Shown: positions 2,219-62,064 of the stretch, piece after piece
How the letters are laid out: each line of letters starts with the position of its first letter
Position numbering within the stretch: position 1 is the first letter of the stretch
Virus record (IMG/VR): IMGVR_UViG_3300015360_000003
Span: 1-62,064 of that record
Reading direction: 5' to 3' (one strand)
Origin: a virus
Length of the DNA: 62,064 nucleotides
Notes under the pieces: generated by a model
Database searches by the model: none
What the model saw: the letters and a program-made list of their open reading frames with translations, nothing else
Told to the model about the DNA's origin: nothing
Made by a program: the position numbers and the translations under genes

Positions 2219-2241
2219 AATTGTTTCCAGTGGTTTAAACA

Positions 2242-2281: not shown

Positions 2282-2338
2282 AGTTTTACTCGGTTACTGT
2301 AGTTTTATACTCCTCAAAAGCTACGCGGTTATCCACCA

Positions 2339-3021: not shown

Positions 3022-3031
3022 TTGATTTCTC

Positions 3032-3069
3032 GTTTGCGTAAAACTTGGCCGGTGGAAGTCCCGGCTTGG
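3032..3069 (-). repeat. family-2 intergenic hairpin element (copy 1)
   Basis: This 38-bp element is repeated exactly at 3380-3417. Its core forms a GCCGG/CCGGC stem with an 8-nt loop. It occupies the same position between stop and ribosome site that family-1 hairpins occupy elsewhere. Confidence 0.75.
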
Positions 3070-3079
3070 AAGTGGGAGG

Positions 3080-3367
3080 TTAAAGCCCGAAATCTTCCGG
3101 CTCTTCGCCACGATTCGGCGCGTAGTGATAAATCGCCTCATATTCAGCTTCGGACTCACAGATTATTTGCGCGCCGCGATCGGTGAGTAACACAGTAAAG
3201 CGCTCAGGCGGCAACGGGACTCCGTTCGCGTGTCGCGTAACTCTTATTAATTTGAGAGTTTCCAGCTCCCGAAGATTGGCCGCGCTGTACACGTCCGTAA
3301 AATGCTGGCCATGTTCGTTGCGGTCAATGATCTCGGAAAGGATTTCATGTTTCTGTTTAGTGTTCAT
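3080..3367 (-). CDS. hypothetical protein, KQKHEILSEI family (copy 1)
   Basis: The 95-residue product is paralogous to the genes at 6993-7259 and 8271-8489. They share K-KHxI-x-I-x-RNE-x-GQHFTD and a following Leu-rich helix, and then diverge toward acidic tails. The short helical N-terminus followed by a beta-rich part could be a small winged-helix-like fold; this is inference. The ATG at 3367 follows GGAAAAC. Function unknown. Confidence 0.7.
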   Translation of the reverse strand: MNTKQKHEILSEIIDRNEHGQHFTDVYSAANLRELETLKLIRVTRHANGVPLPPERFTVLLTDRGAQIICESEAEYEAIYHYAPNRGEEPEDFGL

Positions 3368-3379
3368 TTTGTTTTCCTT

Positions 3380-3417
3380 GTTTGCGTAAAACTTGGCCGG
3401 TGGAAGTCCCGGCTTGG
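3380..3417 (-). repeat. family-2 intergenic hairpin element (copy 2)
   Basis: Exact second copy of the 38-bp element at 3032-3069, located between the stop of the 3421 gene and the start of the 3367 gene. Confidence 0.75.
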
Positions 3418-3420
3418 GGG

Positions 3421-3687
3421 CTAGTCTTTGAACCATTCGTCGCCGATTTTTTCAAAGCAACCGTGGTCCGCTAGGTAGTAGTTGAACTCTTTATGATTGG
3501 AATCGAGCACAACAAACGCGCCAGGTACACAATGGTTGTCCTTTGCTAGTAGCTCCTTCTCGATCTCCTCTGTCGTGTAGCGCTCGATCTCGCAGTCTGC
3601 GATAGCTGCGGCTCTCGTTTCGCCCGCGCCGAACAGCCAATATCCGTATTGTACGACGGCGAATTTAATAGGGGTTTTAGTGTGCAT
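3421..3687 (-). CDS. hypothetical protein, FGAGETRA family (copy 1)
   Basis: The 88-residue product is one of four paralogues (also 6382-6669, 7284-7565, 7954-8202). The family layout is PIKFAV-Q-G, FGAGETRA-A-AD, an acidic helix, a strand with VLxSxHxxF and a C-terminal YL-x-x-xG-x-x-KIG-x-x-WF. It is soluble, with no membrane segment. I recall similar hypothetical phage proteins but no function. The upstream leader has GGAAACAAAATG, as is usual here. Confidence 0.75.
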   Translation of the reverse strand: MHTKTPIKFAVVQYGYWLFGAGETRAAAIADCEIERYTTEEIEKELLAKDNHCVPGAFVVLDSNHKEFNYYLADHGCFEKIGDEWFKD

Positions 3688-3772
3688 TTTGTTTCCATTG
3701 TTTTAAACATTCAATCGATTCGCTTTATCGAGCCACCAGTTTTCATAATTCTTTTCCGGGCATAAAAATTTA

Positions 3773-4390
3773 TCAGGCTTCGGGACGTGGTGCGCGCATT
3801 GCCATGACGACGGCTTTGCAGTGTCCTTCGTCGTGTTCGATCAAAACTTGGCCGCCTTGATACCAGGAAATCGTAAAAATTCCTTCTCCTTCTTTATTTG
3901 CCGTAGCGTCGGTCAGGTACTCAAGATCTATGCAAGAAGATTGGGAATCGATAATAGACTGAATATCGCCTTTTACGTTGGCTATTCTGAGCGCGAATTT
4001 CAAATCAAATTGTTTCCCGTGTGACGCCCCGAACGAAATCTCTACGGCACCAAATTTACAAATAGTTACTCCCGGGCAGTAATTGTTTTTTAAAAACTTG
4101 GATGTGCCGATCAAAAATTTACGGTCATCTGCGGCTAAGAGCAGCGAGAAAGACGCAAGCAACCTATCCGAATTGTTCGGTAACACGTCACGCCACGACG
4201 GGAAATCGACATCCTCACCGGACAGTGAGAAACCCTTTTCGATTTTTTCACTCGAAACGATGTGGATTCGTTTCCCGTCGGTCGCCACTGTGTAGTCCGT
4301 GTCACGGTACGGCGCACGTAGATTTGGGTAGGCACGATCTTTCGACGTTGCCAGATTTAACCAGTCGGTCGGTGATGATATTTTCGTCAT
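3773..4390 (-). CDS. sliding-clamp-like protein (short DnaN C-terminal domain homologue)
   Basis: The 205-residue product carries motifs resembling the last part of bacterial beta clamps. These are ATDGKRIHIV (36-45; compare ATDGHRL), FPSWRDVLPNNSDR (63-76; compare FPDYRRVLPKNPDK) and an end segment KAVVMAMR (about 191-198; compare VVMPMRL). The distances fit domain 3 plus a shortened piece of domain 2, so it is much shorter than a 366-residue clamp. It might form a clamp as a higher oligomer, compete with the host clamp, or bind clamp partners. The homology is inferred by eye; a fold prediction would decide. It sits in the accessory operon, far from the polymerase. Confidence 0.5.
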   Translation of the reverse strand: MTKISSPTDWLNLATSKDRAYPNLRAPYRDTDYTVATDGKRIHIVSSEKIEKGFSLSGEDVDFPSWRDVLPNNSDRLLASFSLLLAADDRKFLIGTSKFLKNNYCPGVTICKFGAVEISFGASHGKQFDLKFALRIANVKGDIQSIIDSQSSCIDLEYLTDATANKEGEGIFTISWYQGGQVLIEHDEGHCKAVVMAMRAPRPEA

Positions 4391-4411
4391 ATGTTTCCAT
4401 TGTTTTAAACG

Positions 4412-4453
4412 TTCAATCGATTCGCTAGTCTCGCGACTAGCGAATCCGGTGAA
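4412..4453 (-). repeat. family-1 intergenic hairpin (copy 3)
   Basis: The longest stem of the family: 12 bp (4419-4430 with 4435-4446) closed by a 4-nt loop, flanked by TTCAA/TTGAA-like arms (one mismatch). It lies between the 4461 gene's stop and the leader of the clamp-like gene. Confidence 0.85.
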
Positions 4454-4460
4454 GGCTTAA

Positions 4461-5075
4461 TTAAGATTGGGTTTGAGTATGGATTGCCCGAAGCATTTTC
4501 AATACTTGAGGATCTTCAATTGCGTTCCAAAGAAAGTCATCTATATGATTGCTACATACCAAAGCTTCAGCTATGGATTTTTCCCATAGCTCGCCAACAT
4601 CGATGTATGAGTTTATGAATGCTTCGAGTAGCACGGCGATTTGGTTATGGTCCCAAGTCAAGACATTACTTGCCCAATCGGATAAGTCGCTGGAGTAAAA
4701 CGATAAGAAACCGGACCGGGACGTAAAGCATTTTTTAATTTGTCTACGCAGTAGTGCCGGATCTACTAGACTGAACACGCGCAAAACCTCCGCGTCTTCG
4801 ATGGTACAAAATATCTGGTCGGTTTGGAAATTGTACTCGCGTGGACTGATTAGTTTTTCAAACGAGATGGCTATGCTGAAGGTATGTGCGAATTGTTCGG
4901 TGTAGTTTTTTGCGTACTGAGAAAAAACCGCCGGCCAACAAATAGCCGCGAATATTACAGCAGAGTTTGGGCATGAGGTGTCCTCAGTACCTTTAATCAG
5001 GTGATCGTAGGCGGTATCCACGGCGTCGGCATGTTCAGTCTGGTAGAATCCTGCGAATGGTAATGTCGTCTTCAT
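4461..5075 (-). CDS. conserved phage hypothetical protein (LPFAGFY family)
   Basis: The 204-residue soluble protein begins MKTTLPFAGFYQTEH and contains SPREYNFQTDQIF near residue 85, followed by an acidic, aromatic-rich C-terminal half. This pattern matches a family of phage hypothetical proteins I recall from many enterobacterial and Pseudomonas phages. No function is established to my knowledge. The ATG at 5075 aligns with that family start; the longer frame only reads the shared leader (MFKQTENI). Confidence 0.75.
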   Translation of the reverse strand: MKTTLPFAGFYQTEHADAVDTAYDHLIKGTEDTSCPNSAVIFAAICWPAVFSQYAKNYTEQFAHTFSIAISFEKLISPREYNFQTDQIFCTIEDAEVLRVFSLVDPALLRRQIKKCFTSRSGFLSFYSSDLSDWASNVLTWDHNQIAVLLEAFINSYIDVGELWEKSIAEALVCSNHIDDFLWNAIEDPQVLKMLRAIHTQTQS

Positions 5076-5099
5076 AATGTTTTCCGTTTGTTTAAACAA

Positions 5100-5137
5100 T
5101 CAATTGATCCGCTATCTGCGACTAGCGAATCTGTTGA
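5100..5137 (-). repeat. family-1 intergenic hairpin (copy 4)
   Basis: The stem 5106-5114 with 5123-5131 contains one position that is a C-A mismatch on the plus strand but a U-G wobble in the minus-strand RNA. This is consistent with selection on the leftward transcript. Confidence 0.8.
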
Positions 5138-5154
5138 GGGTTTATAAACTCTTC

Positions 5155-5553
5155 TTATAGCCACCGGGATGTAAGAGCATAACCACCGTCGGGATCTCGC
5201 ACGTCCGCACCTAGTCCGTTTCTGCCATAGTCTTTACCGGCCTCTGCGGGAATATATCCCTGCGGGAATAGCGCACGCCCTAATGCGTAGATAGTATGAA
5301 ACCCCATGTCCATGCCACAGCCATTTATGCTTAGCGCAGGAGTGCCGCGCAGCGACACAAGACGCAGGCCAAGTACTGCTGCCATCGGGCAGGTAATTCC
5401 GGTTATTTCCCCGTCACGGAGAATAAAAAAACTGATTTTTCGATTCATGCCCGAACGACTCACGGATCGCAGAACGCAGTACACGGTATCGCCGGGCTTC
5501 AACACTGCGCATAGGTGATTACGGTCATCTTCGCGATCTTTTTGCTTTGTCAT
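5155..5553 (-). CDS. conserved phage hypothetical protein (VSRSGM / CGMDMGFH family)
   Basis: The 132-residue product contains LKPGDTVYCVLRSVSRSGMN (about 20-40), a beta-rich middle, and NGCGMDMGFHTIYALGRALF before a C-terminal YALTSRWL. I recall this pattern from a widespread family of phage proteins of unknown function. The invariant Cys-Gly-Met-Asp-Met-Gly stretch suggests a small conserved active or binding site. The ATG at 5553 was chosen because the longer frame is leader read-through. Confidence 0.75.
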   Translation of the reverse strand: MTKQKDREDDRNHLCAVLKPGDTVYCVLRSVSRSGMNRKISFFILRDGEITGITCPMAAVLGLRLVSLRGTPALSINGCGMDMGFHTIYALGRALFPQGYIPAEAGKDYGRNGLGADVRDPDGGYALTSRWL

Positions 5554-5576
5554 AATTGTTTTCCTTGTTTTAAACA

Positions 5577-5619
5577 TTCAATCGATTCGCTAGTCGCCGT
5601 GCCTAGCGAATCTGTTGAA
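5577..5619 (-). repeat. family-1 intergenic hairpin (copy 5)
   Basis: Stem GATTCGCTAG/CTAGCGAATC (5584-5593 with 5603-5612), 9-nt loop, flanked by TTCAA/TTGAA. Placed between the 5623 gene's stop and the next leader. Confidence 0.85.
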
Positions 5620-5622
5620 AGT

Positions 5623-5916
5623 TTAACAACCTAATTCCCCAATTTCGCGGTAGCAGTGAGTGCATTGAGCAGCTGACTCTTCCCCCACTTCTACGCCTAC
5701 CGCTTCATAAGCTTGCCCAATAATTTGCCATTCGTTCGCTTCTCGTAAAAGTGTAGCTTTGAGTACTAGTCGGATGTTGTCCTTAATACACGTAGCGCAT
5801 AGCAGGTCGCCGCAAACTGTGACTCCTAACCGATCATAGCAGCCGGGGAAAGTGCAAGGATGGCGGGTAATGCTTTTAACTATTTTGTTACCCGCAAAGT
5901 TTAGTGCTTTTTTCAT
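5623..5916 (-). CDS. hypothetical protein with two Cys pairs (possible zinc ribbon)
   Basis: The 97-residue product has Cys pairs PCTFPGC (residues 21-26), a second pair CGDLLCATC and a C-terminal CTHCYREIGELGC. This spacing could coordinate one or two zinc ions in a small treble-clef or ribbon-like fold. The middle is helical. Not otherwise recognised. Confidence 0.65.
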   Translation of the reverse strand: MKKALNFAGNKIVKSITRHPCTFPGCYDRLGVTVCGDLLCATCIKDNIRLVLKATLLREANEWQIIGQAYEAVGVEVGEESAAQCTHCYREIGELGC

Positions 5917-5952
5917 AAGTGTTTCCCTTGTTTTAAAGTGTTAACGGCTTCG

Positions 5953-6315
5953 CTAGTCGGCTAAATAGTCAGCTGACAAGCCGTATGTTTTCACGCCGTC
6001 CACATGTACATTATCGAGATCTCCGGCTCCTGGCATACACGGAGAGCAAAACGCGCAATTGATAATGTGAGGCGATTTAAACACGAATAAAAAGTAAGAA
6101 TCGGTCGCGTAGTGACAAATCAAACCGTTTTTGTTGTACGAGAATCCCAATGGTTCGGCGAAGTCGTCGTCATCGGATAAACCTTCAGGATATTCCGCAT
6201 CGAAGTTTTGCAGCCAATCAGGATCGCAGGAGTTCAGCGAGATCACACCGTAGCGAATTCCCGTTTCTACGTCGATGTTAGCTTTGCCGTGTCCGTAGTC
6301 TATTCCGATGTACAT
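5953..6315 (-). CDS. conserved hypothetical protein (GAGDLD family)
   Basis: The 120-residue product starts MYIGIDYGHGKANID and contains CAFCSPCMPGAGDLDN followed by GVKTYGL. This CSPC-xPGAGDLD signature is one I recall from phage and bacterial hypothetical proteins. The cluster of three Cys suggests a metal or redox site. Its stop codon lies within a degraded copy of the family-1 hairpin (5938-5965). Function unknown. Confidence 0.75.
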   Translation of the reverse strand: MYIGIDYGHGKANIDVETGIRYGVISLNSCDPDWLQNFDAEYPEGLSDDDDFAEPLGFSYNKNGLICHYATDSYFLFVFKSPHIINCAFCSPCMPGAGDLDNVHVDGVKTYGLSADYLAD

Positions 6316-6336
6316 GGGTTTCCTTTTTTTTAAACA

Positions 6337-6378
6337 TTCAATCGATTCGCTAGTCGCGTGCCTAGCGAATCTGTTGAA
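6337..6378 (-). repeat. family-1 intergenic hairpin (copy 6)
   Basis: Stem GATTCGCTAG/CTAGCGAATC (6344-6353 with 6362-6371) with TTCAA/TTGAA flanks, between the 6382 gene and the 6315 start. Confidence 0.85.
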
Positions 6379-6381
6379 CGT

Positions 6382-6669
6382 TTAGGCCTCGAACCAAGCA
6401 CCACCGAATTTTTCGTAGCCTCCTTGATTCTGTAGGTAGTCGTCGAAGTCTCTGTGGTCGGATTCGAGTACTACGAATTTTCCGTCGGTCCCGAAATCGT
6501 GGTGATCGAGCAGCTCGCTCTCGATCTCCGCCGGAGTGAGAAGATCGCCGGAGCCGTCGCCGTTTTCAATTTGAGCGTTAGCGAGTGCTAACGCTCGCGT
6601 CTCGCCAGCACCGAACACGCAAGAGCCGAGTTCTATCAACGCGAATTTGAGCGGGTTCTTGTTTTTCAT
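6382..6669 (-). CDS. hypothetical protein, FGAGETRA family (copy 2)
   Basis: The 95-residue paralogue of the genes at 3421, 7284 and 7954. It has KFALIELG, FGAGETRALALANAQIE, an insertion rich in Gly/Asp, then VVLESDHRDFDDYL and YEKFGGAWFEA. The four copies differ enough to have diverged in function or specificity. The leader GGAAAACAAAATG is typical. Function unknown. Confidence 0.75.
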   Translation of the reverse strand: MKNKNPLKFALIELGSCVFGAGETRALALANAQIENGDGSGDLLTPAEIESELLDHHDFGTDGKFVVLESDHRDFDDYLQNQGGYEKFGGAWFEA

Positions 6670-6691
6670 TTTGTTTTCCTTTTGTTAAAAA

Positions 6692-6922
6692 TTAAAAAAT
6701 CGGTGGGTAGGTAGTCAGTATGGACGTTAAACGTGCGTTAAATTCGGACACGGATAGATCCATCATGGTGTCGAACTGTGTCTCGTATCCGTCGATCTTC
6801 ATACGCTGAATCCAAGTGCCGAATCCTTTAAGGTGTATATGGTTGTTCGAGTACCAATACCATCGGTTTTTACTGCTGCGTCGTAGCTGATTGATCTCCG
6901 CGATTATTTTGTCAGTGTTCAT
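6692..6922 (-). CDS. hypothetical protein, DKIIAEIN family (copy 2)
   Basis: The 76-residue paralogue of 1964-2218. It keeps NTDKIIAEINQLRRSSK, the aromatic cluster RWYWYSNNH, KGFGTWIQRMKIDGY and MDLSVSEF. It ends at the expected stop after PPIF, unlike the longer copy 1. In gene order it follows an A-B pair (7284, 6993), the same order as 3421-3080-...-1964. Function unknown. Confidence 0.75.
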   Translation of the reverse strand: MNTDKIIAEINQLRRSSKNRWYWYSNNHIHLKGFGTWIQRMKIDGYETQFDTMMDLSVSEFNARLTSILTTYPPIF

Positions 6923-6950
6923 AATTGTTTCCTTGTGTGTGCGTAACCAT

Positions 6951-6987
6951 TCAATCGATCACCTAGCCGCGACTAGGTGATCTGTTA
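6951..6987 (-). repeat. family-1 intergenic hairpin (copy 7, stem variant)
   Basis: The stem GATCACCTAG/CTAGGTGATC (6957-6966 with 6973-6982) differs from the common stem at several positions, with both sides changed together. This is direct evidence of covariation. Confidence 0.85.
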
Positions 6988-6992
6988 AACGC

Positions 6993-7259
6993 TCAGGCTT
7001 CGATCTCCTCCTCGAATTCCATCGGACTGGCCCAATCATCGGCGTACGCATCTTCGTCGTCGTCGGTGACATCCACAGTCCAATAATCCGGTCCGTATGG
7101 GATGCCAGTTTCGAGATGCACCGGACGATCAATCTCAATTGACCCCTCCGCTTCTAGCTCGATTAAATCAGCGTGATTGTAGAGGTCCGTAAAATGCTGG
7201 CCGCGCTCGTTGCGTGTCGTAATCTTCGAGATGATTTTGTGTTTCTGTTCATTGTTCAT
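6993..7259 (-). CDS. hypothetical protein, KQKHEILSEI family (copy 2)
   Basis: The 88-residue paralogue of 3080-3367 and 8271-8489. It has KHKIISKITTRNERGQHFTD, a Leu/Ile helix, then a strand-rich region and a strongly acidic C-terminus (DDDEDAYADDW). The acidic tail might mimic nucleic acid or serve in protein contacts; this is inference. Function unknown. Confidence 0.7.
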   Translation of the reverse strand: MNNEQKHKIISKITTRNERGQHFTDLYNHADLIELEAEGSIEIDRPVHLETGIPYGPDYWTVDVTDDDEDAYADDWASPMEFEEEIEA

Positions 7260-7283
7260 TTTGTTGTCCTTTTAAAGTTAAAG

Positions 7284-7565
7284 CTACGCCTCGAACCAGT
7301 CATTACCGATTTTGTTATAATAGCCGTGATCAGCTAAATATCCGTCAAAATCTTCATGGTCGGATTCGAGCACAAAGAACGTAGCGTCTACACCGTAGCT
7401 ATACTCTTCGAGCAGCTCGCTCTCGATCTCAGCAGGAGTATAGCGCTTGCCGTTAATGCGCTCGATCTCGCAGTCCGCGACGGCTTCGGCTCTCGTTTCG
7501 CCAGTGCCGTGTACACAATAACCGTATTGGATAACGGCGAATTTGATGGGGGTTTTAGTGTGCAT
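7284..7565 (-). CDS. hypothetical protein, FGAGETRA family (copy 3)
   Basis: The 93-residue paralogue closest to 3421-3687. They share the start MHTKTPIKFAV-QYGY, GETRA-A-ADCEIER and ADHG-x-x-KIG-x-x-WF. Here FGAG reads HGTG. The near identity of N-termini and order A-B-C with 6993 and 6692 points to a segmental duplication. Function unknown. Confidence 0.75.
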   Translation of the reverse strand: MHTKTPIKFAVIQYGYCVHGTGETRAEAVADCEIERINGKRYTPAEIESELLEEYSYGVDATFFVLESDHEDFDGYLADHGYYNKIGNDWFEA

Positions 7566-7587
7566 TTTGGTTTCCTTTTTTTAAACG

Positions 7588-7627
7588 TTCAATCGATCAG
7601 CCAGGCGAACCTGGCCGATCCGTTGAA
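7588..7627 (-). repeat. family-1 intergenic hairpin (copy 8, GC-rich variant)
   Basis: An 11-bp stem (7595-7605 with 7610-7620) closes on a TTCG loop in the minus-strand RNA. One position is a plus-strand A-C mismatch but a G-U wobble in the minus transcript. The stem sequence is largely different from copies 1-6. Confidence 0.85.
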
Positions 7628-7630
7628 AGT

Positions 7631-7744
7631 TTAGTCTCGGTCAAGCAGCAGGTTTAAAAAATTCTGTACGACAAAGAAAGCGAGCAGGAGGATTCCAGCG
7701 AGCAAGGATGCGAGAATGAAGTGACCGCAGATTAAGCCGAGCAT
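7631..7744 (-). CDS. 37-residue single-span membrane protein
   Basis: The short product begins MLGLICGHFI and is almost entirely one hydrophobic helix (LASLLAGILLLAFFVV), ending in NLLLDRD. The ribosome site CGGAAAAC precedes the ATG. It sits between a family-1 hairpin and the next gene, as regular operon members do. It could be a holin-like, anti-holin or inner-membrane regulatory peptide; nothing decides between these. Confidence 0.6.
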   Translation of the reverse strand: MLGLICGHFILASLLAGILLLAFFVVQNFLNLLLDRD

Positions 7745-7767
7745 TGTGTTTTCCGGTTTTTAAACGA

Positions 7768-7887
7768 TTATCGCGTAGCGAGATATCGGATGGCTCGATC
7801 TAGTCGCGCCAGCAGATCGGCGTCGTCTAAATCGTAGCGTACGATAGTGTTGCGAGCCGTTTTCAGTGTGTGCAAGAGTGTGCGCAT
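7768..7887 (-). CDS. 39-residue hypothetical protein
   Basis: The short, basic and helical product (begins MRTLLHTLKTARNT, ends RAIRYLATR) has AAGGAA placed 5 nt before the ATG. It follows the hairpin at 7911-7950. A longer frame covering the same DNA is a shadow that reads through the hairpin. No recognised family. Confidence 0.6.
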   Translation of the reverse strand: MRTLLHTLKTARNTIVRYDLDDADLLARLDRAIRYLATR

Positions 7888-7910
7888 AGCAGTTCCTTTT
7901 TTTGTAAACG

Positions 7911-7950
7911 TTCAATCGATCGGCCTGGCGAACCTGGCCGATCCGTTGAA
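7911..7950 (-). repeat. family-1 intergenic hairpin (copy 9)
   Basis: The 11-position GC-rich stem (7918-7928 with 7933-7943) has a single internal mismatch and the TTCG loop in the minus RNA. Confidence 0.8.
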
Positions 7951-7953
7951 AGT

Positions 7954-8202
7954 TTAAGCTTTGAACCAATCGTTGCCGATTTTTTCGTAGCCTCCTTGAT
8001 TTTTGAGGTATCCGTCAAAGTCGGCGTGATCGGATTCGAGCATCTTGAATTTGGCCGTGCCGTTTTCGTGGTGCGAGATCATCTCGTCAAGCCGTAGGAT
8101 CGTAGCGTCGATAGCAGCGTCGCGTGTTTCGCCAGCGCCAAAAACACAAACGCCGAGTTGGACGACTGCGAATTTGATAGGGTTTTGGTTGTTCGATTTC
8201 AT
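7954..8202 (-). CDS. hypothetical protein, FGAGETRA family (copy 4)
   Basis: The 82-residue and shortest paralogue of this family. It has NPIKFAVVQLGVCVFGAGETRDAAIDATI, a shortened middle, then KMLESDHADFDGYLKNQGGYEKIGNDWFKA. Its compactness probably shows the core domain. It is flanked by two nearly identical GC-rich hairpins. Function unknown. Confidence 0.75.
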   Translation of the reverse strand: MKSNNQNPIKFAVVQLGVCVFGAGETRDAAIDATILRLDEMISHHENGTAKFKMLESDHADFDGYLKNQGGYEKIGNDWFKA

Positions 8203-8227
8203 TTTGATTTCCGGTTTAAATTAAACG

Positions 8228-8267
8228 TTCAATCGATCGGCCAGGCGAACCTGGCCGATCCGTTGAA
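8228..8267 (-). repeat. family-1 intergenic hairpin (copy 10)
   Basis: A perfect 11-bp stem (8235-8245 with 8250-8260) with a TTCG loop in the minus RNA, located between genes 8271 and 7954. Confidence 0.85.
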
Positions 8268-8270
8268 AGT

Positions 8271-8489
8271 TTAATCGTCGCTTTCAACGTTGACAAAAGA
8301 TTCGCCGTCTTCTGTCAAATTGCATTCCCAGTCACCGGGGCGTTCGGCACCAATCCGATGAATTCGCAGCAAACCTTCAGCTTCGAGCGCCAAGAGATCG
8401 GCCAGTTTGTACACGTCCGTAAAGTGCTCTCTGCGCTCGTTGTAATCCGTGATGTGCTCTAAGATCTGGCATTTTTGTTTATCGTTCAT
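8271..8489 (-). CDS. hypothetical protein, KQKHEILSEI family (copy 3)
   Basis: The 72-residue paralogue of 3080 and 6993. It has KQKCQILEHITDYNERREHFTDVYKLADLLALE, then a strand-rich C-terminal part with LTEDGESFV. It is the second gene from the operon promoter and so likely among the first expressed. Function unknown. Confidence 0.7.
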   Translation of the reverse strand: MNDKQKCQILEHITDYNERREHFTDVYKLADLLALEAEGLLRIHRIGAERPGDWECNLTEDGESFVNVESDD

Positions 8490-8513
8490 TTTGATTTCCT
8501 TTTTTTGGTTAAA

Positions 8514-8642
8514 CTAAAATCTGCGCGCTCGGCGCGCTACGTCGTTAGTCAGATACGCGATACCGACAGATATCGCGAGCACGACGAGTAAAGCGATCGC
8601 TGCGTAGATCTCAATGTCGATGTGGGGAAGTAAATTGAGCAT
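8514..8642 (-). CDS. 42-residue single-span membrane protein, first gene of the leftward operon
   Basis: The product begins MLNLLPHIDIEIYAAIAL, has a hydrophobic helix (IYAAIALLVVLAISVGIAYL) and a basic end (ARRARRF), predicting an N-out, C-in inner-membrane peptide. AAGGAACTC lies just upstream of the ATG. The predicted promoter at 8671-8700 would start its message about 20 nt upstream. A very early membrane peptide could act on the host envelope or exclusion; this is inference. Confidence 0.6.
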   Translation of the reverse strand: MLNLLPHIDIEIYAAIALLVVLAISVGIAYLTNDVARRARRF

Positions 8643-40899: not shown

Positions 40900-41448
40900 T
40901 TAGATGCTGTCTGCGTTACACTCTGTTGTACCAAGTTTGTACAATTCATCCGATTCGTGCAGGAGTCTAAGGTACCGTGCGATGTTAACGGCGTCAGTTA
41001 CATCGTGCGATGGGAAGCGGACTTTAGGAAAGGCGACCGTCGCCGCTCGAAAGCTCTCCATCTTGATCGTATCCTTATGGAGCTTCTTAGCCTTACGTGC
41101 ATCAGAGATTGGCAGGCCCTTGACGATAGGGCGCACTGGCATATCTACCGTGTTTTTCTGCCAGTCCACCGTCTTAATGTGGCCGTAGACAATCCCTAAA
41201 TACTGCAGCACCCCGTCCCAAAAGCCCCACCGTGCCCCCAGGGAGAACGTCGCGGCAGCCGACACTCCCCATATCGCATGTAGCGATTCAACCCCTACAA
41301 TGTATTTTGTAGGGCATAGCTTAGTCAGGGAGAGAAGCAGATCAAAAGCGTCCTTACTGTTGTTCGCAGTCAGGACAGTCTCTTTCCCTGTGATAAGGGC
41401 AATACCTGGTTTATCCCCTGGGTCGATCCCGCAGTAGTAGAAGGTCAT
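40900..41448 (-). CDS. RuvC-like Holliday junction / crossover nuclease
   Basis: The 182-residue RNase H-fold nuclease has Asp in CGIDPGDKPG (D9), Glu in IVGVESLH (E54) and a C-terminal HDVTDAVNIARYL (H148, D149, D152), the RuvC acidic set. The basic segment DARKAKKLHKD (116-126) could hold junction DNA. Phages use such enzymes to resolve recombination intermediates and debranch DNA before packaging. It overlaps the GroES gene by 4 bp. Confidence 0.85.
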   Translation of the reverse strand: MTFYYCGIDPGDKPGIALITGKETVLTANNSKDAFDLLLSLTKLCPTKYIVGVESLHAIWGVSAAATFSLGARWGFWDGVLQYLGIVYGHIKTVDWQKNTVDMPVRPIVKGLPISDARKAKKLHKDTIKMESFRAATVAFPKVRFPSHDVTDAVNIARYLRLLHESDELYKLGTTECNADSI

Positions 41449-41723
41449 TCCTCTTCCACATAAAGAACCGAGGACATGTCACAACAGTAAATGTCTACTG
41501 TGTTCTCAATCCTGATCGCTGTTTTGGATAGGTATACGATCACGTCTCCGGCACTAAAGGCGGTGGTAAATTCTCGGCCCCCGTCTATATAGCGATCAAC
41601 TGCAGAGATAACGCGACCGCGCTCTGTGGACGCTTCTTTTGGACTGGCTAAAAATAAACCTCCCGCTGTTTTCTTTTCAGTCGGGAGTTTTTGCACCAAT
41701 ACCTTAGACCCTACGGCTCTCAT
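41445..41723 (-). CDS. GroES-like co-chaperonin
   Basis: The 92-residue product has the Cpn10 plan: VGSKVLVQKLPTEKKTAGGLFLA (N-terminal strand and mobile loop), ERGRVISAVDRYIDGG and a C-terminal YCCDMSSVLYVEE ending. Phage co-chaperonins (for example T4 gp31) replace host GroES on GroEL to fold large capsid proteins. The 630-residue coat with extra domains is a natural client; this is inference. It overlaps both neighbours by 4 bp. Confidence 0.85.
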   Translation of the reverse strand: MRAVGSKVLVQKLPTEKKTAGGLFLASPKEASTERGRVISAVDRYIDGGREFTTAFSAGDVIVYLSKTAIRIENTVDIYCCDMSSVLYVEEE

Positions 41724-41926
41724 TTCGCGACCTGCTGCGGCGGGATCTTGTTCTCACCAAACGACTCGCGGGTATCTCTAAATACGTACGTGGTCCCATC
41801 AGGGTTCATACTGATGCTGTACCCAAGGGAAGCAATCCTTTGTCCTACTGAGCTAAACGAAGCGTATGCTTTTTCAAGTTCTTCTTTTAGGTCTACGATC
41901 TCTACCTTAATGCTTTTCTTTTTCAT
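41720..41926 (-). CDS. hypothetical protein
   Basis: The 68-residue, Lys/Glu-rich product starts MKKKSIKVEIVDLKEELEKAY. It is probably helical with a short C-terminal beta part. It is linked by 4-bp overlaps to the lipoprotein gene and to GroES. Function unknown. Confidence 0.7.
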   Translation of the reverse strand: MKKKSIKVEIVDLKEELEKAYASFSSVGQRIASLGYSISMNPDGTTYVFRDTRESFGENKIPPQQVAK

Positions 41927-43062
41927 TGTCTGAATCCTGGATTAACCGTTCCAATTTTATTGTTACCTGCCCACACTTCAAGCACGGAAACACCTGCAAT
42001 CTGTGTAATGCGGAAACCATACACACCGAAGTAGTATCGTCTCCTACCGTCCGCAAACGGCTGTGAATCCTCGCTCTCGATGATCTTCTTACCGGCTGCC
42101 CGAAGCTCGATACGCCTAGCAGAAATCGGGAAAATAAAAACAGGCTTTAACGCACGCGACTCTGGCGGGACCGTATGCTGGTCCGACTTCGGCTTCACGA
42201 GGTACCTGCTATTTGGCAGGCGCACGTCCCCTTGAAAGGTGGATAGAAACGCTTCTGCCTTTAAAAGATTCTGGGTAGGCCATGCCCGTCTCTTCGGTCG
42301 TGGTGTCGCATCATTTCGGTTGAACCGTCCGTTATTCTGCGATGTCCAGAAAAAGAAGAGGGCCGCATCTTTGAACCGCTGCTTGAGCGTCTCAGTATTG
42401 TAATCAAAACAGTCGGAGCCATCGTAGTTAAAAACATACTTCCCGCCGATGTTCGGAGGCCGTGCGTCTGCACCGTGGACCTCGTTCCAGATACGAGAAT
42501 TCGGTTTAATGAAAGCTCCCTTCCCTACCCATGGATTATTTATATACACGCAGCGTTCTGGAATTACAGCGAGCACTAGGTTTGCTAGGTCCGTTGCGTC
42601 GGTAACCTTTAGCTGGTGCTCAGTCATGCCGGAAAAACCACATCCGACGTTCGGGTACTTTGCTGCTAGTTTCGCGTACTTCCTCGCTTCGGTGACAATA
42701 GCAGGGAAGTCCCTTCGCGATACGCTATGTGTGTCCGACCAGCGGAGGTTATAAATCTGAAACGGGACTTTCCCGGTGCCGAGCAGAGCGTCGATTGAGC
42801 TGTAGGCATCCCCGAAAGTGTTTGTAAATTGTGAGTTCGCAAACCCCGGAGGATGCGCCTTCACCATTATCGCTTTGTATTTCGCGCCCCCCAGATTCGC
42901 GATACCCCACAACGGAGTCGGTACGGCTACACGAATCAGCGGCAGCGTACTCTCCTGGTCTTTGGGCGGTATGTTCTCGCCCAGGTCTGGAGGTAGTGGT
43001 GCCTTAGACGTGCAGGATACTAAGAGGAGAAAGAGAAGGCTTTTTTTCCAGTGGCTACACAT
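41923..43062 (-). CDS. lipoprotein of unknown function
   Basis: The 379-residue product has a type II signal peptide (MCSHWKKSLLFLLLVSC) with lipobox LVSC at residues 14-17, predicting lipid attachment at the envelope. The mature part has NNPWVGKGAFIKPNSRIWNEVHG and YNYD-like strands that recall extracellular hydrolases or glycosidase-like barrels, but no catalytic motif is certain. The C-terminal 90 residues look like a separate beta-sandwich. AAGGTGA lies 3-4 nt before the ATG, and the start overlaps the protease gene by 43 bp. It may act with the protease in superinfection exclusion or lysis. Confidence 0.65.
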   Translation of the reverse strand: MCSHWKKSLLFLLLVSCTSKAPLPPDLGENIPPKDQESTLPLIRVAVPTPLWGIANLGGAKYKAIMVKAHPPGFANSQFTNTFGDAYSSIDALLGTGKVPFQIYNLRWSDTHSVSRRDFPAIVTEARKYAKLAAKYPNVGCGFSGMTEHQLKVTDATDLANLVLAVIPERCVYINNPWVGKGAFIKPNSRIWNEVHGADARPPNIGGKYVFNYDGSDCFDYNTETLKQRFKDAALFFFWTSQNNGRFNRNDATPRPKRRAWPTQNLLKAEAFLSTFQGDVRLPNSRYLVKPKSDQHTVPPESRALKPVFIFPISARRIELRAAGKKIIESEDSQPFADGRRRYYFGVYGFRITQIAGVSVLEVWAGNNKIGTVNPGFRQ

Positions 43063-43685
43063 GCTTCACCTTGCTGCTTTAAAAGAGTTGAGAGATCGTC
43101 GTAGGAAATAATACATTTTCCATCCACCCCCCAGGTCTTACCCCAGCTGTTGTGTAGCTCTATGTACTTATCGTTAACGTCCACACCTGTCGCGAGCAGG
43201 GCGTGTCCGCCGACAAGAGCGCCGGTAGGTTTAATGAAGCCGTAGTCTGTCGGCTTAAACATATCGCTGTACCAGTTAATCCCAAGTGTCACGGGACCCA
43301 CCTGCCCAAGCGCTATGATTAAATCATCAAGTCCGAACGCCCAATGATAAGACTGTATCGCGTTGGGGTACTGTCTGCGGACGGCTTTAATACCTGCTAA
43401 AACCGACGTGCCTTCGTACTCAGTACCAGGGATGGCATCTAGGCGCTGTGCTAATTGGTATGTAGCGACCGCTTCTTTCTCCGTAAGCCCCGTGGATGCT
43501 TCAGGGTCTGCTAGCAGGAAGTGGGTCCAAGAAAAACCGACGCAGGCCGATAGTAAACCCTGGTCTAGATAGGTGCTGCAGTCCCAAAACTTTGTAACAG
43601 GAAACGGGGAACCGACCAGATTTCGTACTGAGAACGACCGGCTATGGTTGTCGAACTTTGGTATACGGCCAAGTTTAAGTGCCAT
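43020..43685 (-). CDS. papain-like cysteine protease (family C1)
   Basis: The 221-residue product has the C1 triad in order: Gln and Cys in DQGLLSACVGFS (Q42, C48), His in GGHALLATGVD (H161) and Asn in LHNSWGKTWG (N179). GPVTLGINWY and a GFIKPTG segment also match papain-like folds. It lacks a signal peptide, pro-domain and the usual first disulfide Cys, so it probably acts in the cytoplasm or virion. Papain-like proteases occur in some phage genomes but their targets are mostly unknown. It lies 50 bp beyond an intrinsic terminator, so its expression may depend on read-through or a local promoter. Confidence 0.85.
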   Translation of the reverse strand: MALKLGRIPKFDNHSRSFSVRNLVGSPFPVTKFWDCSTYLDQGLLSACVGFSWTHFLLADPEASTGLTEKEAVATYQLAQRLDAIPGTEYEGTSVLAGIKAVRRQYPNAIQSYHWAFGLDDLIIALGQVGPVTLGINWYSDMFKPTDYGFIKPTGALVGGHALLATGVDVNDKYIELHNSWGKTWGVDGKCIISYDDLSTLLKQQGEACVATGKKAFSFSS

Positions 43686-44643: not shown

Positions 44644-44858
44644 TTTAGTAACTCCTTTGTGTACGCGTTAAGTTCTTCCAACATCTGATCTAGTACTCTG
44701 CATCCTTCATCCTCTGAAAGAGCGGTGAGTGATGTATTCACACTGAGCATGTGTGCTACCCCACAATAGAAATACTTACGACACTCTGCTCTCTGAATAG
44801 CTGATGCTGTGTTTGGTATAGCTAGAGCCTCTAATAACTTCCACGCTTTCTCTATCAT
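44640..44858 (-). CDS. hypothetical protein
   Basis: The 72-residue helical product (MIEKAWKLLEALAIP) overlaps the polymerase stop by 4 bp and the next start by 4 bp. It has no recognised motif. A polymerase accessory role is possible by position only. Confidence 0.65.
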   Translation of the reverse strand: MIEKAWKLLEALAIPNTASAIQRAECRKYFYCGVAHMLSVNTSLTALSEDEGCRVLDQMLEELNAYTKELLN

Positions 44859-46729
44859 AACTCGGCCTTAATATCGCCCCATTTTAATCCGCAGGCAGCG
44901 TCGGCCACCTCATGTGATACGGCGTTAGGGAACAGCTCCTTCATAGCATCATTCATAGACGCTGCCAATATATCTTTTGCCTTATCAGCGTGCTTCTTGT
45001 GAACGTGTAAGAGGATTTCATCGTGTACCGTGGCAATAAGTACGCCGATCCCGTGTATTCGTTTATGACAAATAACGAGTGCTCTCATCATAAGCTCGGC
45101 GGCAGAACCTTGGATGACCGTGTTCGGTCCCCGTGTGTACAACTCCGTCTCGGTTAATTTCCTGCGCTTCCCTAGAAGAGTTTCGATGTAGCCAAGCTGC
45201 TCTGTTCGTTTTCTGATCTTGTTGCACCAGCTAGAATAGACGCGGAACATACTATGGTACGTCTTATGCGCCTTCTGAAAGAATTCAAAAGGCTTAATGA
45301 TGCCTACGTTTGCACAGTATTGTTGAAACTTCGCTGGCCCCATTCCGTATCCGAGCGCCAACATACAAATCTTCCCTGAAAAACGCTCCGCTAGATCTTT
45401 TTTTGTAATTGGCCTGCCAAATAGGGACGACCCCAGCGTACAGTAAATGTCCTCTTTATCCCTGTAGGCCGCGCACATCACAGGGTCGCGAGAAAATTCT
45501 GCCTGTAGCCTCAACTCAATCTGAGAGAAGTCGCTCACTACTAGTACGTGATCTTTATCGGCTACGAACATGTTACGGAAAGCTTTATCACGAGGAAAAT
45601 TTTGATTGTTAGGATTACGCGATGATAATCGACTCGTCCTCGTTTCCCCAATCGTATACGACGTATGCAGTCGCCCGGTAATCGGGTGCTTCTTTTCAAT
45701 TAGCGACTGGCCGTAGGTGTCGATGAGTTTACTATACTGCTTGTATTCAAGTAGCGCTGCAATAGAAGGGAGGTGGGCGTATGCCGTGATTACATTCTTA
45801 CCAAAAGCAAACTGCCCTTTCTTTGTCTTCGGCCAGGCAAGTAAATCTTTTGGAGAATCCTTAAGATATACTTTAAGCCACTCGTTCATTTGCTTACCAC
45901 TCTTCATGTTGGTATCACCAAAGAACGGCTTGCATTTTTCTAACGCGAGGGCTGACTGCTTCTCCCACCCAGCGATTAAGTTTTTATGGTACTTCCAATC
46001 GATAGGTAAACCTTCAAGCTGCATCCTCGCAACAACATGCTGTATTTCTTTTTGCTGTTGATACGCTTTAGTCATCTTATACTCGACGATCTTTTTAGAC
46101 AGTACGAGTGCTGCCTCATAAGTGAGCAGAGCATCTAGAGCTGCGTACACTATTTGATCCTGCGACAAAACTTTCGCTGCCCAATCCGATACCTGCTGCG
46201 TCTTAGATACCTTCACCCCAAATAGTCTCTGTGTAACAGCATCTAGGCTGTGGCCGCCGCGAGTTCTGTACTGAGCCAAACCTGTTTTATCTTCGTCGTC
46301 TTCCTCGTCTGGTTCGTATGGGGAGTACTCTGCCCCTTCTAGTAACTGCGACAGGAGCATAGAACAGCCGCAATTAATATCTAAAATCCCTGCGTGTGTA
46401 AGATGCACGATTTCAAAGACTGCACAATGAGCAACGAACCTGCCTTTCGATAAGAAAGGCGCTAGAAGTTTTATAGGAATCTTAAACAAGTCGAACACGT
46501 AGATATTACGGTCAGGAGTATGAACTTGTAGGAGTCGTATGTTTGAAAGCCGGGGATCTAGTCCTGCCTGAGTATGCTCAACATATTCAGGCTTCTTAGC
46601 TGTCTCGATATCAAGACCGCAGAGTTTATCGACAGGTATCTTTTTTAATATCCCAGGAACTTCGTCTTTGTCCGTAACGTAGTGAGCTTTAAAGGTCCAG
46701 GTATGAAACTTATTTTTCGTTGTTTTCAA
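44855..46729 (-). CDS. DNA polymerase I-like (family A) with 3'-5' exonuclease
   Basis: The 624-residue replicative polymerase. The N-terminal proofreading domain has Exo I LCGLDIETAK (D40, E42), an Exo II block near VAHCAVFEIVHL and Exo III YAALDALLTYE. The palm and fingers show motif A VVSDFSQIELR (about 400), motif B KICMLALGYGMG (about 456) and motif C TVHDEILLH (about 570). It lacks a 5' nuclease domain, as in T7-type enzymes. It overlaps LpxR and the 44640 gene by 4 bp each. Confidence 0.95.
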   Translation of the reverse strand: MKTTKNKFHTWTFKAHYVTDKDEVPGILKKIPVDKLCGLDIETAKKPEYVEHTQAGLDPRLSNIRLLQVHTPDRNIYVFDLFKIPIKLLAPFLSKGRFVAHCAVFEIVHLTHAGILDINCGCSMLLSQLLEGAEYSPYEPDEEDDEDKTGLAQYRTRGGHSLDAVTQRLFGVKVSKTQQVSDWAAKVLSQDQIVYAALDALLTYEAALVLSKKIVEYKMTKAYQQQKEIQHVVARMQLEGLPIDWKYHKNLIAGWEKQSALALEKCKPFFGDTNMKSGKQMNEWLKVYLKDSPKDLLAWPKTKKGQFAFGKNVITAYAHLPSIAALLEYKQYSKLIDTYGQSLIEKKHPITGRLHTSYTIGETRTSRLSSRNPNNQNFPRDKAFRNMFVADKDHVLVVSDFSQIELRLQAEFSRDPVMCAAYRDKEDIYCTLGSSLFGRPITKKDLAERFSGKICMLALGYGMGPAKFQQYCANVGIIKPFEFFQKAHKTYHSMFRVYSSWCNKIRKRTEQLGYIETLLGKRRKLTETELYTRGPNTVIQGSAAELMMRALVICHKRIHGIGVLIATVHDEILLHVHKKHADKAKDILAASMNDAMKELFPNAVSHEVADAACGLKWGDIKAEL

Positions 46730-47538
46730 TGTATAGTTAGTGAAATTTCGCCAAAGTCTGCGGCATCCCCGCCGACATACTCAGGACTCATTTTTATATA
46801 TGTATACGAAAACTTATAGTCTCCGTACTCAAGGCTAATACCTGCCCGACCTTCTGCTACAAACGGATACTTATCAACCGACCGCGAATCTTTAAAAGTG
46901 TTGCCGTCTAAGAAGATATTTCTGGCTACTCCTCGCCCGTACACTCCTGCGAAAAATCCTATGTTTAGTCCTTCTCTTAATCTAATCCGTGGGTACAGGC
47001 CATCAGGAGCATCCTTGTAAAGTACACCAATTGTAACCTGATCGAACATGTTCCCAACATCAAATCGTACGTCGGTTAGGATATTTCCGGCGACTCTATC
47101 TTGCAGCTGTCTTGAAATATTGATGCCGGGTTCATCTCGAAGCTGGTAGTCCCATCCTTGGGGGAACGATTGTCCCAGGAATCTATGCACGGTGCGCTGC
47201 GTTTGCTCGCTAAAAGAGCTTGGTCCAACAACACCGAATTCATAGCCCCATACACGTCTCGTGTGATCTTCTCCAATGTCGGTCTGGGTGAATCCCGCAA
47301 GAAGCGCTCCTGCGTATGGACGCTCGTTAGATAGTGGTATGTGTAGTCTTTTGTGATTTGGGGTGTAAAAAATTTGTCTGGCATAGTATCGATCACCCGC
47401 CTCACCAGCTTCTGCACCCGTGCTAACTTGTAATCCTTGAGTGAAATTACGGTCGTTATTTTGGGTGGGTTTAAAGATGTCATTCGCCTCCGTTATTGTA
47501 CATCCGCATAGAAATAGACTTAGTAAAGTACGTCTCAT
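46726..47538 (-). CDS. lpxR-like: LpxR-like outer membrane lipid A 3'-O-deacylase
   Basis: The 270-residue product has a signal peptide (MRRTLLSLFLCGCTITEA). The mature N-terminus NDIF (N19, D20) and the segment NFTQGLQVS (T33) match the LpxR/DUF2219 active-site strand. NERPYAGALL (71-80), GPSS...QTQRTVHRFLG (H118) and GWDYQLRDEPGINI (128-141) follow in the family order. The alternating polar/hydrophobic strands to the end fit a 12-strand barrel. LpxR removes the 3'-acyloxyacyl group of lipid A in some Gram-negative bacteria. In a phage this could alter LPS to block superinfection, change host immune visibility or prepare lysis. It is embedded in the DNA polymerase operon. Confidence 0.85.
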   Translation of the reverse strand: MRRTLLSLFLCGCTITEANDIFKPTQNNDRNFTQGLQVSTGAEAGEAGDRYYARQIFYTPNHKRLHIPLSNERPYAGALLAGFTQTDIGEDHTRRVWGYEFGVVGPSSFSEQTQRTVHRFLGQSFPQGWDYQLRDEPGINISRQLQDRVAGNILTDVRFDVGNMFDQVTIGVLYKDAPDGLYPRIRLREGLNIGFFAGVYGRGVARNIFLDGNTFKDSRSVDKYPFVAEGRAGISLEYGDYKFSYTYIKMSPEYVGGDAADFGEISLTIH

Positions 47539-47897
47539 TCCACCATCTTAAAAAGCTCTCCCATCATGTACCCGACGTATGTAGCAACAAACTCCTCTCC
47601 TTCTATCGGGTCGATACCGAGTACCTTAGCAACATACAAGGCGCAGTGCGTACACTCGTGCGCCCAGGTGCTGTACACTGACGGCATCGCTAACCTGAGT
47701 ACACCCTGATAGCGGTGTATGCTGTTACTGGTAAAAGATCCTACGGAATCCCCGACTAGGTGCCCCCCAATCTGGGGAATACAGAACTTCTTAGAGGCCC
47801 AATTAATAGCTTCTAGTTCAGTACCACCGAGGACGATTGCCCAACTGAAATTTTGTACGGGGTCTTTAATTATCTTCTTTATCAATTGTTTTTTCAT
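47535..47897 (-). CDS. HExxH metallopeptidase-like phage protein
   Basis: The 120-residue product has STWAHECTHCALYV (H80, E81, H84) and an acidic pair at GEEFVATYVGY (E101, E102) that could be the third zinc ligand. I recall this short protein from many phage genomes, where it is usually just hypothetical. No signal peptide, so cytoplasmic action is likely. Whether it cleaves protein is unproven. Confidence 0.7.
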   Translation of the reverse strand: MKKQLIKKIIKDPVQNFSWAIVLGGTELEAINWASKKFCIPQIGGHLVGDSVGSFTSNSIHRYQGVLRLAMPSVYSTWAHECTHCALYVAKVLGIDPIEGEEFVATYVGYMMGELFKMVE

Positions 47898-51521: not shown

Positions 51522-51832
51522 AGTTCCTTCTCCGTGATTTGATCTTTTGCAATCTGTTCTAAAGTCTTCTCCTCGTCGCATATTGAGCAGCGTCGCCGAT
51601 TCTCGTAGTAAGAAGGCATCCATTTGGCCAACTTCAAAGCAACCCAATCGTGCGCCGAATCGTTTAAGCAATCCGCTTTGCGCGAATAGTACTCAATGCA
51701 GTGCTCCAACGTGAAAACATACCGACGATCACAGTGAGGACATTGGTGTTGATAGGTCGTCTCGGTGTTCGCGCACTCCTCTGGGTCTGGCGGTCTTGAT
51801 TCTTTTTTACAGTACGGGCATCCGATGCTCAT
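51518..51832 (-). CDS. zinc-ribbon-like protein
   Basis: The 104-residue product has three CxxC pairs: MSIGCPYCKK (5-8), QCPHCDRR (about 31-34) and RRCSICDEEK near the C-terminus (about 82-85). This suggests one or two zinc sites. Such proteins often bind DNA, RNA or protein partners. The ATG at 51832 was chosen because it overlaps the metzincin stop region properly. No family name can be given. Confidence 0.65.
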   Translation of the reverse strand: MSIGCPYCKKESRPPDPEECANTETTYQHQCPHCDRRYVFTLEHCIEYYSRKADCLNDSAHDWVALKLAKWMPSYYENRRRCSICDEEKTLEQIAKDQITEKEL

Positions 51833-52545
51833 TTCAACCTCGCCATAACGCACACTCGCATGTCTACAACACTGCGCTGGCTGAATCGTGGGACTTTACC
51901 GATCTGACTAGCGCAGGTCATTACATCGATCTGCATTATGTTGCACTTACCTTCCGCCGTGTGGAACGCACCGAGCTGATGCGCCACTTCGTGCATGACT
52001 AGCACGGTCTGCGGTATCCACCACGCAGCCCGGCCCCGCCATAAATTCACAACCACTACCGCGTTGTCGCTGCCGACCTGGCATTTCGAATTCGAAATTC
52101 CACCGAGAAACATGCCATCCTGAGAGCGTAATGGCCCGGTCGCGACTATAGTCACTCCTCCGCGCAACGTGGATTTGCCATCTCGCAATGCGTTGGTCCA
52201 GCTATCTAATTGCAGCACACGAGATTCGTAGTCGACAGCCGAATTAGGAAACGCATCGGCGTACCAGAGCGTTTTTTCGCGGTATACGTGGATGCCTTTT
52301 AGTCGCGAGAGCAGCGCAGCCGCAGCGTCAACGAGTCTCTCAGTTTCAGGTACGCCGATATTATCCGGTGAATCTACGTAAATGATACGTAGTGGTATAC
52401 CAATCTCGCCACGCGGCGCTGCTGATGCGTCACGTACCATTACGACGAGCATCACGATTACAATCCAAAAGATGCACGCGAGCGAGATGACCACCCAGGC
52501 TGCCCATGGTGCAGGTAGTGTACTTTTTTCGTATTTGTTTTTCAT
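51829..52545 (-). CDS. membrane-anchored metzincin-type metalloprotease
   Basis: The 238-residue product has one N-terminal membrane segment (about 14-37) and a downstream zinc motif HEVAHQLGAFH (H185, E186, H189, H195), the HExxHxxGxxH signature of metzincins. A Met-turn candidate follows (IMQIDVM, 204-209). The catalytic part would face the periplasm. Residues 50-180 have the alternating strands of a metzincin upper domain, and Cys155, 201 and 211 could pair. Metzincins are common as secreted proteases but unusual in phage genomes. It may act on envelope proteins; this is inference. Confidence 0.75.
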   Translation of the reverse strand: MKNKYEKSTLPAPWAAWVVISLACIFWIVIVMLVVMVRDASAAPRGEIGIPLRIIYVDSPDNIGVPETERLVDAAAALLSRLKGIHVYREKTLWYADAFPNSAVDYESRVLQLDSWTNALRDGKSTLRGGVTIVATGPLRSQDGMFLGGISNSKCQVGSDNAVVVVNLWRGRAAWWIPQTVLVMHEVAHQLGAFHTAEGKCNIMQIDVMTCASQIGKVPRFSQRSVVDMRVCVMARLK

Positions 52546-53134: not shown

Positions 53135-53737
53135 TTACTCAGCCTCCGCCAGTCGCATCATGTCCGCCAGCGCAACCTCGTTGGAGTCGAAAAACCGTGT
53201 GGGCGAAATCTCGTAGCCGCTAGCCCTGTAAATCTGCATTGCCGCGAATAATGGGGATGTTCTCGCTTCGAGATCGTAACCGGACGGGCCTGCGAGGTGA
53301 ACAGCCCAGCCCGCACGACAGTGGGTCGTCTCGCACACATGCCACCGCTGCATATCGAACGAATCAGGCGTGGCCATCGCCGCAGCAAGCACTGCTTTAT
53401 GAATATCGGGGATGATCGGAATCTTTATTTTTTCGCTTTTTTCGTCGTCGCAGCGGTAGCAGCGGTCCACGCAGTGGTAGCAGCGGGAGCAGCGGGAGCA
53501 GTCATTGCAGTCGTCGCAGTCGTCGCAGTCATCGCAGTCATTGCAGCGGTCACAGTTGGAACAGTTGGAGCAGTCGAGGCAATCAACACAACCGACACAC
53601 TCGACACAATCTCGGCAATCGAAACACTCCATCAGCGTCGCGAGTGAAGCCCGCGCAAGCGCTTCACTTCCCCATTTTTCAATCGATGCTCGGTTGCCGC
53701 TGCCATCGTCGGAGGTTATCCAAGTTTTGCTTTCCAC
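53135..53737 (-). CDS. protein with cysteine at every third residue plus C-terminal HCRAGW domain (paralogue 3)
   Basis: The 200-residue product has the shared N-terminal module (GNRASIEKWGSEALARASLA), then 18 strict C-x-x steps (CFDCRDCVECVGC...) and a short irregular end (VDRCYRC). Unlike the two left-end copies, it continues into a C-terminal domain (about 100-200) with MQRWHVCETTHCRAGWAVHL, IYRASGYEISPTRFFDSNEV and ADMMRLAEAE. I recall this domain joined to Cys-repeat tracts in other phages, without known function. The domain itself has conserved Cys and His and may share the metal-binding theme. Confidence 0.8.
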   Translation of the reverse strand: MESKTWITSDDGSGNRASIEKWGSEALARASLATLMECFDCRDCVECVGCVDCLDCSNCSNCDRCNDCDDCDDCDDCNDCSRCSRCYHCVDRCYRCDDEKSEKIKIPIIPDIHKAVLAAAMATPDSFDMQRWHVCETTHCRAGWAVHLAGPSGYDLEARTSPLFAAMQIYRASGYEISPTRFFDSNEVALADMMRLAEAE

Positions 53738-61841: not shown

Positions 61842-61895
61842 GTTTTCTCCTTTAAAATGTGAGAGCGGGGGACAGGGGCGAGAGGGGGACAGGGG

Positions 61896-62064
61896 CGAGC
61901 GTGGCAGGTGGGTAATCATCGGTTAATCCCATGTGCGAGAGGGGGACAGGTGGGTAATCATCGGTTACTGCCATGTGCGAGCCTTCGAGCGTGGCAGGTG
62001 GGTAATCATCGGTTAATCCCATGTGCGAGCCTTCGAGCGTGGCAGGTGGGTAATCATCGGTTAA
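61896..62064. repeat. 48-bp tandem repeat array, right end
   Basis: A partial unit (to 61926), a 42-bp variant (61927-61968, with GAGGGGGACAGG replacing the GCCTTCGAGCGTGGCAGG part) and two full units (61969-62016, 62017-62064). The last unit is identical to the first 48 bases of the window and in register with it. Upstream, 61863-61895 has shorter GAGGGGGACAGGGGC repeats. Confidence 0.95.

Follow-up and report, generated by a model that had tools for sequence, protein, structure and literature searches.

An LpxR-type lipid A deacylase in a phage genome and a recurrent lipobox-like signal among phage LpxRs

A virus record of 62,064 bases from IMG/VR, the whole of which is referred to here as the window, encodes a well-supported LpxR in a phage, a setting in which the role of such proteins is already known in part. 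Novelty lies in the recurrence, in separate phage lineages, of a lipoprotein-like signal, recognised in the protein sequences by a lipobox-like cysteine at the first β-strand. Taking the evidence together, we hold with about even confidence a joint reading in which the window ORF specifies a minimal and catalytically competent LpxR that would act as an active 3′-O-deacylase, would be a lipid-anchored barrel of the outer membrane, would be expressed in the lytic cycle and would leave a cell surface that is less adsorptive or that allows a cleaner release. Phages alter host O-antigen and make receptor-blocking proteins; we know of no description of lipid A acyl-chain editing during lytic infection. 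Since at least ten diverse phages with no recognisable integrase carry an intact LpxR, such editing is a concrete and testable idea.

The gene (46726..47538, minus strand) encodes a protein of 270 residues that matches a single Pfam family, LpxR (PF09982; E 3.8e-51, profile positions 26–321 of 323), at 174 bits against a curated cut-off of 26 bits. Its PHROGs match is phrog_2309 (E 1.3e-10), a family to which PHROGs assigns no function, and its sole solved relative by sequence is the LpxR of Salmonella, 3FID (E 1.1e-10). The AlphaFold2 model, built from 60 aligned relatives, has a mean pLDDT of 91.8 and 12 strands. 3FID is also the top fold match of the model in Foldseek (E 4.3e-21), and VIA-align superposes the two with a Z of 28.8 and 2.1 Å over 247 residues, the runner-up family lying far below at Z 18.1; no LpxR-like viral model was found in BFVD. 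An initial annotation of this DNA, which had placed an LpxR-type protein in a virus genome, is borne out by the Pfam, 3FID and model evidence and by the IMG/VR origin of the record. The ordered sequence blocks that it listed are likewise in place (NDIF, residues 19–22; RPYAG, residues 73–77, 47308..47322; GWDYQL, residues 128–133, 47140..47157; both spans on the minus strand), with the qualification that the signal peptide counted among them is unusually short. At 270 residues, the protein is the shortest member of the family examined; the other phage proteins have at least 299 residues and those of the bacterial set at least 319.

LpxR enzymes hydrolyse, in a Ca-dependent reaction, the 3′-acyloxyacyl chain of outer-leaflet lipid A and use a histidine as the general base (PMC6260217), and roles have been described for Asn9, Asp10, Thr34, Gln118 and His122 of the Salmonella enzyme (PMC6260217, PMC6863877). 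The window protein retains all of these residues, as N19, D20, T33, Q114 and H118. The Ca/active-site pair Asn19-Asp20 (Salmonella N9 and D10; 47479..47484), Gln114 (Q118; 47197..47199) and His118, the catalytic base (H122; 47185..47187), are invariant in 60 of 60 aligned sequences, and Thr33 (T34; 47440..47442) is Thr or Ser in 60 of 60, all four features being on the minus strand. In the model, His118 is borne by a loop helix spanning residues 110–121. Lys63 and Arg64 match Salmonella K67 and R68, positions that both vary in the family. Ser124 stands where Salmonella has E128, the proposed hydrogen-bond partner of H122; because this position is variously Asp, Ala, Pro, Ser, Glu or Lys across the family, the serine is no argument against LpxR membership.

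The short length and the serine at the E128 equivalent would both suit a catalytically dead LpxR-like barrel that acts as a decoy at the surface or masks a receptor. We consider this very improbable, since decay would have lost some of the catalytic residues and all of them are present in the window protein and in six other aligned phage proteins; a further phage LpxR, that of record L102, keeps Gln at the Q118 position, albeit read from an in-frame TAG. The window protein resembles the LpxR of Salmonella Typhimurium (3FID) in its 12-strand barrel, its N/D/T/K/R/Q/H active-site residues and the loop helix with the catalytic His, at 24% identity and with a 270-residue precursor compared with 296 residues in the mature Salmonella protein. 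It differs in its 12-residue lipobox-like signal, in the replacement of D11 by Ile and of E128 by Ser, and in its terminal His.

The gene is interlocked with its neighbours. Its start shares the sequence ATGA with the stop codon of the ORF just upstream (120 residues; 47535..47897, minus strand; HECTH metallopeptidase-like motif and a weak phrog_1365 match), and its stop shares TTGA with the start codon, TTG, of a family-A DNA polymerase gene (44855..46729, minus strand; PF00476, E 3.2e-62). Replication genes for a helicase, a RecB-type exonuclease, a Gp2.5-like single-strand binding protein, a resolvase and a Dam methylase lie on the same strand, and a primase is also encoded in the record. 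This placement suggests that lpxR is expressed together with the replication genes. The structural module of the window is highly divergent, most of its proteins having no PHROG match, and no terminase was recognised in the window; both features could suggest that lpxR is of host origin and that the contig is misclassified or chimeric. We regard such an origin as extremely unlikely, given the overlapping frames that link lpxR to a phage-type DNA polymerase, the occurrence in the record of the helicase, primase, exonuclease, single-strand binding protein and resolvase along with recognisable tail-fibre and lytic tail proteins, and the presence of LpxR in nine other IMG/VR records, several of them with a terminase. 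Single-protein scans of IMG/VR with the LpxR and the DNA polymerase returned no close relatives of the window phage.

The nine other records (L010, L091, L092, L093, L094, L095, L101, L102 and L103) were found by pattern scans of IMG/VR, to which a later scan added none. The LpxR-bearing contigs range from 20 to 476 kb, all ten records including the window exceed the Pfam LpxR cut-off, and no tyrosine integrase or serine recombinase was detected in any of them. The initial annotation had proposed a search for lpxR beside DNA polymerase genes in other phages. Only one other of the ten records carries a family-A polymerase, about 13 kb from lpxR (G007, the L101 contig), and a constant pairing of phage LpxR with DNA polymerase is ruled out, the pairing being confined to the window among the ten IMG/VR records. 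In the 105-kb IMG/VR phage L102, the lpxR gene (L102:8001-8888) is open only when TAG is read as Gln; of its four in-frame TAGs, three fall at conserved Gln positions, and one of these three is the match of Salmonella Q118. TAG=Q recoding is very likely in this phage, and a broken lpxR was rejected because the stops are all TAG and on conserved Gln. In L103, the terminase large subunit is preceded by an apparent second terminase N-terminus (WLAGGRGCVDASTLIETPRGKIP; L103:335-3668), which suggests that the gene holds an intein or that a fragment was duplicated.

Among annotated phages, an LpxR match was found in phage 434 only, in which the gene has ninI on one side and Q on the other and is read from the opposite strand; its product is identical to the LpxR of E. 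coli O157:H7 lambdoid prophages. The same gene occurs at 99–100% identity in 616 of 5,426 complete E. coli genomes, and the one E. coli O157:H7 copy that was examined is part of a lambdoid prophage, where Q and ninI flank it. A 2026 preprint reports that lpxR adjoins Q in E. coli prophages (PMC13192938), and an lpxR mutant of EHEC shows less lipid A deacylation according to Ogawa et al., as cited in PMC6863877. Phage carriage of LpxR is therefore already known, and the view in the initial annotation that no phage use had been described is not supported, phage 434 being annotated with LpxR and the prophage genes having been reported. In the literature searched, carriage of LpxR by phages with no recognisable integrase is apparently undescribed. 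The proteins of phage 434 and the EHEC O157:H7 prophage share with the window LpxR the phrog_2309 family and a phage-borne gene. The phage 434 protein, at 24% identity to that of the window, differs in belonging to a temperate lambdoid phage, in a gene that lies beside Q against the late operon and in a signal free of a lipobox.

The N-terminus of the window protein is unusual. Codons 1–12 (MRRTLLSLFLCG; 47503..47538, minus strand) specify a very short lipoprotein-like signal, modelled as a helix at residues 2–8, and Cys13 (47500..47502, minus strand), the last residue of a lipobox-like LCGC and the first of β-strand 1 (residues 13–19), is the predicted lipidated N-terminus. Upstream of the ATG there are three open codons (GAT GGT GGA) and then TAA, giving an open frame of 273 residues that contains no in-frame start codon upstream of the lpxR ATG; with the frame open for just three codons, a longer signal is impossible. 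The signal ends in L-C-G-C and has no A-x-A site for signal peptidase I. Residue 11 of the model is the structural counterpart of the first mature residue of 3FID, which leaves no space for a normal A-x-A signal. The lipobox-like character of the signal had been overlooked in the initial annotation. The lipobox itself is borderline as judged from the sequence. Patterns of the PROSITE PS00013 type require the cysteine at positions 15–35, and the window signal does not match, having its Cys at 13 and Arg3 within the hydrophobic stretch; as in a lipoprotein, the cysteine directly precedes the folded domain, a likeness of position in the model.

Comparable cysteines at strand 1 occur in four other phage LpxRs, those of L010 (LQGC), L095 (LSSC), L101 (LCSC) and L103 (GLGC), and the signals of all four satisfy PS00013. 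In an AlphaFold2 model of the L095 protein, the signal helix spans residues 2–14, the cysteine is residue 15 and strand 1 runs from 18 to 25. These four proteins resemble that of the window in having the lipobox Cys directly before strand 1 and an intact active site, and differ in being 27–39% identical to it, in belonging to other phages and in their gene neighbourhoods. The cysteine is absent from the LpxRs of L091–L094, phage 434 and L102, and is thus found in 5 of 11 phage LpxRs, compared with none of the relatives from bacteria or plasmids, about 130 in all. In a first census it was present in 5 of 10 phage and 0 of 83 bacterial or plasmid proteins (Fisher 5e-6, for proteins that are related and therefore not independent); a second bacterial set of 51, chosen for similarity to the clade of L010, L095 and L101 and overlapping slightly with the first, also gave none. 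The bacterial census covers LpxRs from outside the Bacteroidota.

In the tree, a clade made up of phage proteins only (99% SH-aLRT) unites L010, L095 and L101 and leaves out the window and L103, so the five lipobox proteins belong to two or three distinct lineages. One common origin for all phage LpxRs is not supported, since the tree requires four changes of the phage label, of which at least two are forced by well-supported branches; several branches are long. We tentatively suggest, at a confidence well short of even, that in two or three lineages of lytic phages LpxR may have been turned into a lipid-anchored barrel through a lipobox at strand 1, in place of its ordinary signal. A similarly doubtful alternative is that the window protein is an ordinary LpxR with a short conventional or uncleaved signal, to which no lipid is attached and in which Cys11 and Cys13 are incidental. 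The sub-PROSITE length of the signal and its Arg3 agree with that alternative, as does the carriage of LpxRs with lipobox-free signals by L091–L094, L102 and phage 434; it is opposed by the pattern-passing signals at the equivalent position in four other phage LpxRs, by the structural alignment, in which residue 11 corresponds to the N-terminus of the mature Salmonella protein and a normal signal-peptidase I signal has no room, and by the absence of the feature from all of the roughly 130 bacterial relatives covered.

A precedent for the predicted lipidated barrel is provided by the TolC homologues OprM and CusC, lipid-anchored outer-membrane β-barrels with an acylated N-terminal Cys (PMC13082787), which differ from the window LpxR in being trimeric efflux ducts of unrelated fold and function. 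If the proposed change of signal is correct, a lipid A-editing enzyme would enter the outer membrane by the lipoprotein route and the surface would be remodelled within one infection cycle. A genuine lipobox would also mean that there are monomeric β-barrel enzymes with a lipid anchor, useful for studying how the lipoprotein and BAM routes combine in outer-membrane proteins, and would make phage LpxRs a source of compact lipid A-editing enzymes. At the other end of the protein, the terminal residue is His, nearly all relatives ending in Phe, Tyr or Leu, and recognition by BAM may therefore be weak.

In the mechanism that we propose under the joint reading, the window LpxR would be exported by Sec, its short signal would be removed at Cys13 by the lipoprotein signal peptidase and the cysteine would be acylated. 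Delivery through Lol and BAM would insert the barrel into the outer membrane, its lipid lying in the inner leaflet. With Ca2+ and His118 as the general base, the enzyme would then cut the 3′-acyloxyacyl chain from lipid A of the outer leaflet while the phage replicates, within a lytic infection, a timing that we propose because lpxR is embedded in the replication operon and the phage has no recognisable integrase. Competing or sibling phages would adsorb less to the altered surface, or progeny would be released more cleanly; superinfection avoidance and cleaner release are put forward because they fit the position of the gene in the window operon. The most likely benefit would be a host surface refractory to further adsorption; the superinfection block and the effect on lysis that the initial annotation put forward stand as hypotheses. 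Lysogenic conversion fits phage 434 but not the records with no recognisable integrase. The literature was searched for phage lipoproteins of the outer membrane that act in superinfection, with no result.

Release could also be served more directly, with deacylated lipid A loosening the outer membrane and so aiding the endolysin/spanin step or the escape of progeny. Gene order in two other phages is consistent with such a role: in L095 a spanin pair (phrog_739 and phrog_812) follows lpxR at a distance of about 1.4 kb, and in L103 lpxR is downstream of the terminase. In the window, lpxR overlaps the DNA polymerase and the upstream ORF within the replication operon and is distant from the SLT-domain genes (32.3–34.0 kb and 61.3–61.9 kb), a position that points to early or middle expression, and we consider a role in lysis unlikely.

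Several further features of the window are recorded here. Near lpxR there are three peptidase-like ORFs that differ from one another: a papain-like one (PF00112) at 43020-43685, the small HECTH ORF at 47535-47897 and one at 51829-52545 that has a metzincin-type motif (HExxHxxGxxH) and a hydrophobic N-terminus. The 379-residue ORF at 41923-43062, with no PHROG or Pfam match, has a good lipobox (LLVSC, Cys17), which suggests that the window phage produces one or more further lipoproteins. A GroES-type co-chaperonin (phrog_3188) is encoded at 41445-41723. The 200-residue ORF at 53135-53737 contains a long Cys-Asp repeat (CDDCDDCNDC...) and matches phrog_31265 and phrog_15341, with no known function; a related repeat family is present at 1.5–2.8 kb. 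Between small minus-strand ORFs at 1450-8520 there are many repeated hairpin-like and upstream segments (ATTCAATCGATTCGCTAG... / TTCATTTTGTTTCC), perhaps promoters or terminators of a small-gene cluster. The two ends of the record (19-240 and 61891-62064) share a 48-base tandem repeat; the genome may therefore be near-complete and either circularly permuted or terminally repeated.
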